Source: Stutzerimonas kunmingensis
GTDB taxonomy: Bacteria > Pseudomonadota > Gammaproteobacteria > Pseudomonadales > Pseudomonadaceae
NCBI RefSeq assembly: GCF_021432085.1
Contig: NZ_CP090366.1
Span: 1,116,001-1,180,000 of the forward strand
Direction: 5' to 3'
Length of the DNA: 64,000 bases
Below are positions 3,921 through 24,809 of this stretch, piece by piece. Position 1 is the stretch's first letter, and each line of letters opens with the position of its first letter. Below the pieces are notes generated by a model. It searched no databases. It saw only the letters and a list, made by a program, of their open reading frames with translations, and was not told the DNA's origin. A program made the translations under genes and the position numbers.

Positions 3921-4319
3921 TCAGCTGGCGGCTTGCTTGGCCAGGGTGCTTTCCAGGGCGCTGCGGCAGCGCTCCTCGGCGGTGTCCAGCTCCAGCTGCA
4001 TCTGCTGGATGTCGAGCAGTTGCTGCTCCAGCTGCTGGCGCCGCTCGGCGATCATCTGCAGCATGATGTTCAGCTGCTTCTGGTTGCCGGCCTTGGGGTC
4101 GTAGAGCTCGATCAGCGTCTTGCATTCAGCCAGCGAAAAGCCGATGCGCTTGCCGCGCAGGATCAGCTTCAGCGCGACGCGATCCTTGGGTGAATAGATG
4201 CGTTCCTGACCGCGGCGGGTCGGCGTGAGCATGCCCTGTTCTTCGTAGAAGCGGATGGCGCGAGTGGTGATATCCAGCTCATTGGCCAGGTCGGAAATAC
4301 TGTAGGTTTGTTTCGCCAT
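3921..4319 (-). CDS. liuR: MerR-family regulator of leucine/isovalerate catabolism (LiuR)
   Basis: 132 residues from the ATG at 4319 (an alternative start lies 5 codons upstream). The N-terminal winged HTH of the MerR family is clear: YSISDLANELDITTRAIRFY, EEQGMLTP and RRGQERIYSPKDR. A long dimerisation helix follows (ERRQQLEQQLLDIQQMQLEL), and there is no metal-binding cysteine cluster. The sequence matches LiuR/GnyR, the repressor of the liu genes in Pseudomonas as I recall it. It lies 77 bases after atoB at the promoter-distal end of the leftward cluster, whereas in P. aeruginosa liuR precedes liuA. Its likely targets are the TTTACGTTAACGTAAA palindromes at 14521 and 15954. Confidence 0.85.
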   Translation of the reverse strand: MAKQTYSISDLANELDITTRAIRFYEEQGMLTPTRRGQERIYSPKDRVALKLILRGKRIGFSLAECKTLIELYDPKAGNQKQLNIMLQMIAERRQQLEQQLLDIQQMQLELDTAEERCRSALESTLAKQAAS

Positions 4320-4396
4320 GATTCTTCCGATCATCCTCTGTCACGCCCGGCGAACCGGGCGCGTGTCTGCCAGCATGCCCTGCCGCGACGGTGCGC

Positions 4397-5578
4397 TCAG
4401 GGGCGTTCGACTGCCAAGGCTACTCCCTGGCCACCACCGATGCACAGCGTTGCCAGGCCCTTGCGAACATCGCGGCGCTGCATCTCGTGCAGCAGGGTCA
4501 CCAGGATGCGGCAGCCCGAGGCGCCGATCGGGTGGCCGAGGGCAATGGCGCCGCCGTTCACGTTGACCTTATCGGCATCCCAGCCCAATTCCTTACCGAC
4601 TGACAGCGCCTGCACGGCGAAGGCTTCGTTGGCTTCGATCAGGTCCAGCTCGGCCAGCGTCCAGCCGGCCTTTTCCAGGCAGCGACGGGTGGCGGTGACC
4701 GGGCCGATGCCCATGATCGCCGGGTCGACGCCGGCGTTGGCGTAACCGGCGATCTTGGCCAGTACCGGCAGGCCGACGGCCTCGGCCTTGCTGGCGCTCA
4801 TCAGCACCACCGCGGCGGCGCCGTCGTTGAGGGTCGAGGCGTTGCCGGCGGTGACGCAGCCGTCCTTCTTGAAGGCTGCACGCAGGCCGCCGAGGGATTC
4901 GGCCGTGGTGCCGGCGCGCGGCTGCTCGTCACGGGCGAAGGCGACCGGGTCGCCCTTGCGCTGGGGAATCATGACCGGGGTGATCTCGGCATCGAAGCGG
5001 CCGCTTTCGATGGCCGCCGCGGCACGCTGCTGCGACTGTGCGGCGAAGGCGTCCTGCTGGGCGCGGTCGATGCCGTACTTGTCGGCCAGGTTCTCCGCGG
5101 TGATGCCCATGTGGTAGTCATTGAAGGCATCCCACAGGCCGTCGGTGATCATGGTATCGACGATCTGCGCGTGGCCCATGCGCAGGCCGGTGCGTGCGCC
5201 GGGCAGGACGTAGGGCGCCAGGCTCATGTTCTCCATGCCGCCGGCGATGACCACTTCGGCATCGCCGCAGCGGATCGCCTGCACGGCCAGATGCACGGCC
5301 TTGAGGCCCGAGCCGCAGACCTTGTTCAGCGTCATGGCCGGTACGGCGTGGGGCAGGCCGGCCTTGATCGAGGCCTGGCGCGCGGTGTTCTGCCCGGCGC
5401 CGGCGGTGAGCACGTGGCCGAGGATGACTTCATCGACCTGGGCCGGTTCGATGCCGGTCTTTTCCAGCAGGGCGCGGATCACGGTGGCGCCCAGTTGGAC
5501 TGCCGGCACATTGGCCAGCGAGCCCTGGAAACTGCCGATGGCGGTGCGGGTTGCAGCTACGATGACGACGTCTTGCAT
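4397..5578 (-). CDS. atoB: Acetyl-CoA acetyltransferase (thiolase)
   Basis: 393 residues from the ATG at 5578, preceded by a GGAG Shine-Dalgarno. It cleaves acetoacetyl-CoA to two acetyl-CoA. The nucleophile is C88 in [11 protein letters not shown], the catalytic histidine is in GHPIGASG near the C-terminus, and the second cysteine is in CIGGGQG. The length is standard for biosynthetic/degradative thiolase II. It sits downstream of the CoA-transferase genes, so it finishes the acetoacetate branch of leucine degradation. Confidence 0.93.
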
Positions 5579-5833
5579 GACGGACTCCGAATAAAAAGGC
5601 GCCACGCCGGGGCGTAACGCGAGGGCCAGGCACGCGGCCTGGCTCCGGGAAAGGGTGCCCTCGAACGACAGGGGGCAAGCCGTTGGTCAGCGCGCTGGCA
5701 GACCGGTCGATGCCGCAGTATACGGGCGCCTGGGTGACTGGCCAGTGCTGGCGCGCCGCCGGCTCGGGACGTTCGGGACAGGCGGGAAGACGCGGCGGGC
5801 AAGGGTTGCTCCGGCGTCATTCCCGCACTCGCT

Positions 5834-22860: not shown

Positions 22861-22884
22861 CACCCGGTCGGTAACGGCCGGGTG
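22861..22884 (+). promoter_or_regulatory. Stem-loop between binding-protein and permease genes
   Basis: CACCCGGtCG-gtaa-CGgCCGGGTG, a 10-bp stem with one mismatch and no U tract. It probably protects the 3' end of the binding-protein message so that this component is made in excess. Confidence 0.6.
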
Positions 22885-22911
22885 CCACGGACTTCCTTTG
22901 GGTGATGAACC

Positions 22912-23799
22912 ATGACTCTCCTATTCGGCGTACCCCTGAGCGTACTGCTCGGGCAGCTGCTGCTCGGCCTGATCAACGGGGCGTTCTACGCACTGCTGAG
23001 CCTGGGCCTGGCGATTATCTTCGGCCTGCTGCGCATCATCAACTTCGCCCATGGTGCGCAGTACATGTTGGGCGCCTTCGTGGCCTTCCTCGGGCTGAAC
23101 TACTTGGGTGTGAGCTACTGGTTCGCGCTGGTGCTGGCGCCGTTGGTGGTGGGTTGCCTGGGCATGGCCATCGAGCGCGGGCTGCTGCGGCGCATTGCCG
23201 GTGAGGATCACCTTTACGGATTGCTGTTGACCTTCGGCCTGGCGCTGATCGTCGAGGGCAGCTTCGTCAAGCTGTTCGGCGTATCCGGCTCGTCCTATCC
23301 AATGCCGGAGTTGCTGCGTGGCGGCTTCAATCTCGGCTTCATGTTCCTGCCGACCTACCGCGCCTGGGTAATCGTCGCCGCGCTGGTGGTGTGCCTGGCG
23401 ACCTGGTACGTGATCGAACGCACCCGCCTGGGTTCCTACCTGCGCGCCGGCACCGAGAACCCGAAACTGATGCAAGGCTTCGGCATCAACGTACCGCTGC
23501 TGGTGACCCTGACCTACGGCTACGGTGTGGCGCTGGCGGCCTTCGCCGGCGTGCTGGCTGCGCCGATCTACGCGGTGACGCCGGGCATGGGCTCGAACCT
23601 GCTGATCGTGGTGTTCGCTGTGGTGGTGATCGGCGGCATGGGCTCGATCCTCGGCGCCATCATCACCGGCATCGCCATGGGTCTGATCGAGGGGCTGACC
23701 AAGGTGTTCTATCCGGAAGCGGCCAACACCGTGGTGTTCCTGGTCATGGTGGCGGTGTTGCTGATTCGTCCTGCGGGACTCTTTGGTAAGGAGGCATGA
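22912..23799 (+). CDS. Liv-type ABC transporter permease (LivH-like)
   Basis: 295 residues, strongly hydrophobic, with LivH signature stretches: LLLGLINGAFYALLSLGLAI, GLLRIINFAHGAQYMLGAF and VVIGGMGSILGAIITGIAMG. It forms half of the inner-membrane pore. The ATG has no strong Shine-Dalgarno (GGTGATGAACC). The stop overlaps the next gene by ATGA. Confidence 0.92.
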   Translation: MTLLFGVPLSVLLGQLLLGLINGAFYALLSLGLAIIFGLLRIINFAHGAQYMLGAFVAFLGLNYLGVSYWFALVLAPLVVGCLGMAIERGLLRRIAGEDHLYGLLLTFGLALIVEGSFVKLFGVSGSSYPMPELLRGGFNLGFMFLPTYRAWVIVAALVVCLATWYVIERTRLGSYLRAGTENPKLMQGFGINVPLLVTLTYGYGVALAAFAGVLAAPIYAVTPGMGSNLLIVVFAVVVIGGMGSILGAIITGIAMGLIEGLTKVFYPEAANTVVFLVMVAVLLIRPAGLFGKEA

Positions 23800-24809
23800 G
23801 CATGACGAATCCGGCAAACGTGCAGGCCGCATCGCTGCGGCAGGCCAGTGTGGTACGCGAGCGCAGGCACGCGGCCGCGCGGCGGCAGAAGATTTTCTAT
23901 GCGGTGTTGCTGGTGATCGCGCTGTTGGCGCCGCTGGCGGTGTATCCGGTGTTCCTGATGAAGCTGCTGTGCTTCGCCCTGTTCGCCTGCGCCTTCAACC
24001 TGCTGCTCGGCTACGCGGGGCTGCTGTCCTTCGGCCATGCGGCGTTCTTCGCCACCGGCGGCTACATCACCGGCTACATGCTGAGCAGCTACAGTGGGCT
24101 CAGTACCGAGCTGGGGATACTCGCCGGCACCCTGGCCTCGACGGTGCTCGGTGCGCTGTTCGGCATGCTGGCGATCCGCAGGCAGGGCATCTACTTCGCG
24201 ATGATTACCCTGGCGCTGGCGCAGCTGGTGTTCTTCGTCTTTGTTCAGGCGCCGTTCACCGGGGGCGAGAACGGGTTGCAGGGCGTGCCGCGCGGGCATC
24301 TGTTCGGCCTGGTCGACATGAAGAACAACATGGCCATGTACTACTTCGTGCTGGCGGTGTTCGTCCTTGGCTTCGCCATCATCCAGCGCACCATCCATTC
24401 TCCGTACGGCCAGGTGCTCAAGGCCATCCGCGAGAACGAGCCGCGGGCGGTGTCGCTCGGCTACAACGTCGATCGGCACAAGCTGCTGGCGTTCGTCATC
24501 TCCGCGGCGCTTGCCGGTCTGGCTGGCGCGACCAAGACCGTGGTGTTCCAGCTGGCCTCGCTGACCGACGCGCACTGGCACATGTCCGGCGAGGTCATCC
24601 TGATGACCCTGCTCGGCGGCGTCGGCACCATCCTCGGGCCGCTGGTCGGCGCCACCGTGGTGGTGACGCTACAAAGCTCGCTGTCCAACGGACCGTTGGG
24701 CGAGTGGGTGCATGTGATCCTCGGGGTGATCTTCGTGCTCTGCGTGCTGCTGTTCCGCTCCGGCATCGTCGGCTGGCTGGAGCGGCTGGTGAAGCGCAAC
24801 TTCAAGTAG
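23796..24809 (+). CDS. Liv-type ABC transporter permease (LivM-like)
   Basis: 337 residues. A charged N-terminal extension (about 45 residues) precedes the membrane helices. LivM motifs are FNLLLGYAGLLSFGHAAFFATGGY (residues 65-90), LALAQLVFFVF and LLGGVGTILGPLVGATVVV. It pairs with the LivH-like subunit and completes the five-gene importer. A long stem-loop follows the stop. Confidence 0.92.
   Translation: MSMTNPANVQAASLRQASVVRERRHAAARRQKIFYAVLLVIALLAPLAVYPVFLMKLLCFALFACAFNLLLGYAGLLSFGHAAFFATGGYITGYMLSSYSGLSTELGILAGTLASTVLGALFGMLAIRRQGIYFAMITLALAQLVFFVFVQAPFTGGENGLQGVPRGHLFGLVDMKNNMAMYYFVLAVFVLGFAIIQRTIHSPYGQVLKAIRENEPRAVSLGYNVDRHKLLAFVISAALAGLAGATKTVVFQLASLTDAHWHMSGEVILMTLLGGVGTILGPLVGATVVVTLQSSLSNGPLGEWVHVILGVIFVLCVLLFRSGIVGWLERLVKRNFK

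Follow-up and report, generated by a model that had tools for sequence, protein, structure and literature searches.

The liu (gny) operon of Pseudomonas aeruginosa, whose pathway and liuB/liuD genes are cited in PMC3667196, has the same liuA-B-C-D-E gene set and chemistry as a locus that we analysed in Stutzerimonas kunmingensis. This locus lies in a stretch of 64,000 nucleotides (positions 1,116,001 to 1,180,000 of contig NZ_CP090366.1; hereafter, the window), which is part of a 4.78 Mb single-contig genome, and it differs from the P. aeruginosa operon in the distal position of the regulator gene liuR, in the presence of scoAB and atoB within the operon, and in a divergently transcribed acyl-CoA synthetase gene (acs) followed by an ATP-binding cassette (ABC) importer of the Liv type. 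The first-pass annotation of the window had likewise called the layout unlike that of P. aeruginosa, and this stands, the PAO1 order beginning with liuR, but the layout proves to be common to a whole clade. A divergent acs-liuA pair also occurs in P. putida (PP_4063/PP_4064), and 21 of the 45 surveyed genomes with such a pair, unlike the window, lack an orthologous substrate-binding protein (SBP) of the importer. PP_4064 is described as an isovaleryl-CoA dehydrogenase (PMC12005932). The importer itself is like other Liv/Urt-type (HAAT) importers in having two permeases, two ATPases and a binding protein of family PF13458, encoded here in one operon, but falls below all curated branched-chain amino acid (BCAA) and urea transporter cut-offs and carries an Arg at the Walker A Lys of LivF. 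In ABCG5/G8, a Lys-to-Arg change in Walker A is reported to go together with a change in the signature (PMC7756269), and degenerate ATP sites are described for the importers RbsA and NupO (PMC11466899); the present case differs from these in that it concerns a Liv-type importer, whose two ATPases are encoded by separate genes and whose degenerate site is predicted from sequence.

We favour, with modest confidence, the view that the locus is a LiuR-controlled uptake-plus-activation module whose substrates would be branched short-chain acids. Gene content, conserved linkage and conserved operator positions are what the sequences show; LiuR binding, the promoter positions, the ligand class of the SBP and Acs, and the inducer are inferred. 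The minus strand, from 14403 down to 3921, carries liuA, liuB, liuC, liuD, mvaB, scoA, scoB, atoB and liuR, an assignment already made by the first-pass annotation and borne out here; the plus strand, from 14723 to 24809, carries uvsE, acs, an AhpD-family gene, a two-frame oprD, livG, livF, the SBP gene, livH and livM. The Liu pathway set is complete (liuA, liuB, liuC, liuD and hydroxymethylglutaryl-CoA lyase). In the proposed mechanism, the Liv-type importer, and in some lineages the porin too, would take up short branched carboxylic acids, foremost isovalerate and probably also isobutyrate/2-methylbutyrate or 3-methylcrotonate, and Acs would trap them as CoA esters. The liu operon would then turn isovaleryl-CoA into acetoacetate, and ScoAB/AtoB would take this to acetyl-CoA, while LiuR would occupy operators that overlap the promoter -10 elements of liuA, acs and livG, to be released once acyl-CoAs of the pathway accumulate. 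The usual assumption for short branched acids is entry by diffusion or through simple permeases, and a dedicated, co-regulated ABC importer would, if true, give a role to a transporter clade whose closest relatives of known structure carry the label of 'branched-chain amino acid' binders. A literature search of titles and abstract openings found no isovalerate or branched-acid ABC importer beside liu, and a predicted LiuR-liv link may exist in RegPrecise. The earlier annotation had read the locus as a self-contained unit that imports, activates and burns a branched acid; its observations are largely right and are partly confirmed here, and its interpretation is partly supported: it is strengthened as regards the unity of the locus and the shared operator type, with the substrate a prediction from gene context.

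The conserved linkage was surveyed in 148 Pseudomonadaceae genomes (thresholds: SBP, at least 76% identity; liuA, E <= 1e-190; acs, E <= 1e-200), among which 24 have an orthologue of the SBP, 117 of liuA and 81 of acs. As to the synteny of acs, liv and liu, a search for which had been suggested earlier, all 24 SBP-bearing genomes have liuA with acs within 5 kb of it, and 21 of them have the importer no more than 9 kb from liuA. In two of the three exceptions the importer and liuA are on different contigs (G164, G189), and in the third they are far apart on one contig (G123). Of the 80 genomes that have both genes, 45 have acs no more than 5 kb from liuA, among them all 24 with the SBP. Fisher's test for the linkage gives p ~1e-15, which is not a true probability since the genomes are related. 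More distant SBP copies (21 listed) are near liuA in none of 20 genomes, several of which are draft assemblies. The divergent acs-liuA pair is common and the importer link is restricted to certain lineages; within the genus, 12 of 18 genomes, this one counted, carry the importer clade.

Beyond this survey, liu genes are present in 23 of 80 named importer loci (10 from Pseudomonadaceae, 10 from Halomonadaceae, two from Marinobacter and one from an Oceanospirillales metagenome-assembled genome (MAG)), and a further locus (L081) has liuR and acs; some of the surveyed and named loci are from the same genomes, so that their counts overlap. The closest named loci, with SBP identities of 95-96%, are those of Stutzerimonas stutzeri 24a75, a Pseudomonas MAG and S. 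kunmingensis. The distal liuR noted earlier is seen in all 12 fetched liv-linked relatives, 10 of which have scoAB and three atoB in the operon, whereas in eight fetched genomes without a linked importer liuR precedes liuA in five, is distal in two and was not found in one. The layout in Halomonadaceae is different, with liuR divergent from livG, and points to a repeated or ancient association. We rejected chance linkage on the recurrence of the acs-liuA-importer grouping in Pseudomonadaceae and Halomonadaceae together with the conservation of the operators, and comparison of the loci supports treating the importer, the ligase and liu as a single conserved unit whose parts have the same type of operator.

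According to PMC3223726, LiuR belongs to the MerR family and represses the use of branched-chain amino acids. Three palindromes with at most three mismatches are present in the window, as opposed to 0.02 expected. The first, TTTACGTTAACGTAAA, lies before liuA (14521..14536) and overlaps a possible -10 element (TTGACA-N17-TACGTT); the second, with one mismatch to the liuA copy, lies before acs (15954..15969; TTGTCA-N17-TAACGT); and the third, with three mismatches, lies 81 bp before livG (19985..20000; TTGCCG-N18-TATCGT). We take the palindrome to be the LiuR motif. LiuR-like palindromes on both sides had been pointed out before and the first two copies were confirmed, but the one before livG had been overlooked. 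By eye, each of the three coincides in part with a hexamer that resembles a -10 element and has a suitable -35; a stricter consensus promoter scan returned two promoters against 2.1 in shuffled sequences, and the three read by eye were not among them. The arrangement of an operator over the -10 element fits a repressor, which would presumably be LiuR.

A site with at most three mismatches is found within 500 bp of livG in 60 of 66 loci (27/27 from Halomonadaceae, 17/21 from Marinobacter, 13/15 from Pseudomonadaceae and 3/3 others), the remaining 14 of the 80 loci having been left out for want of a usable livG match or upstream stretch. As controls, six of 3300 mononucleotide shuffles of the upstream stretches had such a site, and the remainder of the loci had 0.02 per 500 bp. 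Fewer livG sites are seen at two mismatches or less, for example in 3/10 linked Pseudomonadaceae and 4/21 Marinobacter loci. In all 17 Halomonadaceae loci without liu in the fetched flanks, some of which are short, the operator is present before livG, and has thus been kept without visible linkage. A 14-bp version of the pattern (at most two mismatches) is at background genome-wide, with 116 matches against 137 for the reversed control. Five regions with other one-mismatch sites (L093-L097) showed no branched-acid genes when judged by eye from the starts of their open reading frames, and two 16-kb stretches of the genome that contain ECH_2-family genes had no site at four mismatches or less. 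Also upstream of livG is an A-rich stretch, CAACAACAACAAACAAGG (~20026-20045), with similar stretches in the Pseudomonadaceae loci compared; we take it to resemble the Crc/Hfq catabolite-control motif.

The substrate of the importer was approached through model scores and through its neighbours in other genomes. The SBP (21580..22842, plus strand; true start probably 21625) matches PF13458 with 353.9 bits, and its nearest solved chains are 3i09 and 3n0w. None of the curated BCAA models was reached (bits/cut-off: LivG 189.2/362, LivF 166.2/441, LivH 101.8/379, LivM 104.4/366, SBP 42.6/477), nor any of the urea models (SBP 61/492.75, UrtB 179.8/250.3, UrtC 155/296.2, UrtD 217.1/304.1, UrtE 210.1/285.8). 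A ligand prediction from LivJ pocket residues was dropped, as two aligners put the amine-binding Glu at different places. In 10 Vreelandella/Halomonas loci the importer has liu on one side and, on the other, an isobutyrate/valine-type cluster (HIBCH, mmsB and an acyl-CoA dehydrogenase), and 19 Marinobacter loci have an AMP-forming ligase, eight of them with mmsA, HIBCH and mmsB as well. The queries for these genes were taken from locus L061, whose methylmalonate-semialdehyde dehydrogenase, 3-hydroxyisobutyryl-CoA hydrolase and 3-hydroxyisobutyrate dehydrogenase are each above a curated cut-off and whose ligase reaches no cut-off among the curated models listed. Overall, 33 of the 80 named loci have liuB or mmsB and at least 29 have a ligase (some loci being cut at their ends), with 20 having both and 38 neither. 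The same 80 loci hold no relatives of the amino-acid dehydrogenase (at 45% identity or more) or of the fused oxidoreductase (at 40% or more) discussed below, and a relative of an E1-alpha is in one of them. The recurrent partners of the importer are therefore ligases and acyl-CoA pathways, which suits the import of free branched acids.

These observations bear on an alternative that we regard as unlikely, namely that the importer takes BCAAs, mainly leucine, with the whole locus acting as an enlarged regulon for leucine degradation and Acs returning free isovalerate to the pathway or working on other acids. Membership of the Liv-type family speaks for it, as do the amino-acid-binder annotations of several folds nearest to the SBP and the description of LiuR regulons as branched-chain amino acid utilization regulons (PMC5343134, PMC3223726). 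However, a separate protein of this genome (L006) already exceeds the BCAA-binding cut-off with 642.5 bits against 477, where the SBP of the window has only 42.6 bits on the same model, and the importer loci hold ligases and almost no amino-acid entry enzymes. This genome also has no clear bkd E1-alpha, as judged from PF00676 and curated model scores: the three PF00676 matches are one E1-alpha-like protein, a 945-aa frame that is probably of the 2-oxoglutarate dehydrogenase type, and a partial match. The best scores of the E1-alpha-like protein, below cut-off, are with pyruvate dehydrogenase models, and its neighbours by eye resemble acetoin/butanediol genes. PF12573, used as a bkd marker, had no match in 56 genomes nor in the controls and is hence uninformative.

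Two sets of observations weigh against the uptake module as we propose it, and the first concerns leucine entry. At another locus (L105; G000:C1:3861152-3865838) an amino-acid dehydrogenase, best matched by a tryptophan dehydrogenase model below cut-off, adjoins a 1156-aa fused 2-oxoacid:ferredoxin oxidoreductase (PRK13029, 1710 bits, cut-off 952). Together they could stand in for bkd, produce isovaleryl-CoA and feed leucine into liu. An exclusion of leucine for missing bkd was withdrawn on this ground and because the E1-alpha evidence is not clear-cut, and the earlier claim that the locus serves an exogenous acid rather than only leucine degradation is not established. The fetched 10 kb around the fused oxidoreductase has no LiuR-like site at three mismatches or less, and one with four. 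The second set concerns damage to the uptake arm in this strain. The oprD gene, a single open reading frame in all eight relatives examined, is spread here over two frames (18499-19068 and 19020-19760), and livG has no start codon at the position where all 11 relatives compared use an ATG (~20059-20074), the next in-frame start being a GTG at 20074. Either the uptake arm is decaying in this strain, or there are assembly errors at oprD and livG; if the sequence is right at both places, the porin, and perhaps LivG as well, would be impaired. The description of the system as self-contained is therefore doubtful in this strain, with oprD split and the livG start altered, although relatives have intact copies of both.

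The damage also suits a reading that we consider very improbable, in which the importer and porin are merely carried along in the neighbourhood and have nothing to do with liu. The oprD and uvsE genes are facultative, which would fit, but the linkage is seen in two different layouts and the operator is kept even where linkage is absent. It is similarly improbable, to a lesser degree, that the importer and Acs serve other acids of the same regulon, such as isoprenoid-derived or medium-chain acids, 3-methylcrotonate, or acetoacetate/3-hydroxy acids. The subfamily model matched by Acs (16051..17733, plus strand; PRK12583 type; NF009233, 971.7 bits, cut-off 832) is not substrate-specific, ScoAB/AtoB are encoded within the liu operon, and P. 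aeruginosa FadD4, a possible counterpart of Acs, is described as acting on C6-C18 fatty acids and as needed for citronellic/geranic acid use (PMC3667196). On the other hand, the recurring partners of the importer are liu and isobutyrate/valine genes, and the genome has no geranyl-CoA carboxylase paralogue, the second-best LiuD-like protein being only 50% identical. The acyclic-terpene (atu) reading was rejected for the same lack of a second geranyl/methylcrotonyl-type carboxylase.

The most unexpected part of the locus is the Walker A substitution in LivF (20832..21548, plus strand). Arg replaces the Lys in all 65 relatives with a readable motif, out of 67 matching loci, and a separate motif search of 81 sources also gave Arg in 65/65, including the window. 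In a phylum-wide set of 30 loci, Arg occurs with LDEI[TS]EG in the window and in 5/5 others whose LivF is at least 69% identical, whereas Lys is retained in 24/24 loci with a LivF of ~63% identity or less. LivF retains LSGGEQQ in 65/65 read. LivG (20074..20835, plus strand) retains the canonical Walker A, GPNGAGK[TS]T, in 66/66 with the Lys intact, and its signature, LPYGRKR in the window, has Ser in L020 and L050 only, Pro or Ala taking its place in the other 64 of the 66 clade members. In a heterodimer, this signature would face the altered LivF site. However, 9 of 24 LivG-like best matches at greater distance have Pro or Ala too, and in their loci LivF retains the Lys, which weakens a clade-specific pairing of the two changes; as far as these motifs go, only the LivF Walker A change marks the importer clade. 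In this genome's second Liv system the motifs read GRNGVGKTT and LSYGRKR.

The conserved Arg of LivF suggests that one of the two ATP sites is degenerate and would have lost hydrolysis. Among titles and abstract openings searched, no degenerate ATP site was reported for a Liv-type importer; the substitution would, if the prediction is true, be a bacterial importer counterpart of the asymmetric sites of ABCG5/G8. We tentatively raise, as possible though short of probable, that the clade with Arg in the LivF Walker A is a new Liv-type group in Gammaproteobacteria, a LiuR-controlled high-affinity importer of isovalerate/isobutyrate in which one ATP site hydrolyses and the other is degenerate, and which is coupled to the trapping of its substrates as CoA esters by Acs.

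The individual gene assignments rest mostly on curated models. In the liu operon (minus strand), atoB (4397..5605; acetyl-CoA C-acetyltransferase; NF004206, 797.7 bits, cut-off 688), scoB (5834..6463; 3-oxoacid CoA-transferase subunit B; TIGR02428, 333.6 bits, cut-off 243.55), scoA (6468..7163; subunit A; TIGR02429, 266.7 bits, cut-off 128.5), mvaB/liuE (7249..8148; hydroxymethylglutaryl-CoA lyase; NF004283, 495.9 bits, cut-off 246) and liuC (10666..11517; enoyl-CoA hydratase of the gamma-carboxygeranoyl/methylglutaconyl type; NF004227, 498.6 bits, cut-off 426) are above cut-off. The MerR-family regulator gene liuR (3921..4334), the final gene of the operon, matches PF13411 with 57.2 bits (cut-off 21.6) and PF09278 above cut-off, and liuD (8400..10301), for the biotin-carboxylase/biotin-carrier subunit of methylcrotonyl-CoA carboxylase, matches biotin carboxylase and carrier models. 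Neither liuA (13240..14403; isovaleryl-CoA dehydrogenase) nor liuB (11521..13128; carboxyltransferase subunit; TIGR01117, 306 bits, below cut-off) has a curated model above cut-off, and both were named from family, position and identity, liuA by its acyl-CoA dehydrogenase family and liuB by its 86-100% identity to the liuB of linked Pseudomonadaceae loci.

On the plus strand, the acs gene, the AhpD-like gene, an OprD-family sequence and the five Liv parts listed earlier were all recovered, but uvsE had been missed, as had the break in oprD and the altered livG start. The AhpD/CMD-family peroxidase-related gene (17791..18396) matches TIGR01926 with 173.2 bits (cut-off 81.8); the N-terminal part of oprD (18499..19068) covers positions 2-138 of PF03573 and the C-terminal part (19020..19760) positions 150-393, with 201 and 281.5 bits, respectively; and the livH-type (22912..23799) and livM-type (23796..24809) permeases were identified by profile matches. 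The uvsE/UvdE gene (~14723..15745; UV-damage endonuclease; PF03851, 146.6 bits) lies between liuA and acs and is flanked by two copies of the palindrome (14521-15969), so that liuA and acs each own one, whereas the Stutzerimonas loci without uvsE have a single operator between liuA and acs. It is rare among relatives (2/80 named loci) and occurs also in L106 and L107 among 20 further fetched regions, the contig of L107 being that of one of the two named loci; uvsE is a lineage-specific insert. Downstream of the liu operon, at 767-1852, there is a gene for a TRAP-type (DctP) solute-binding protein.

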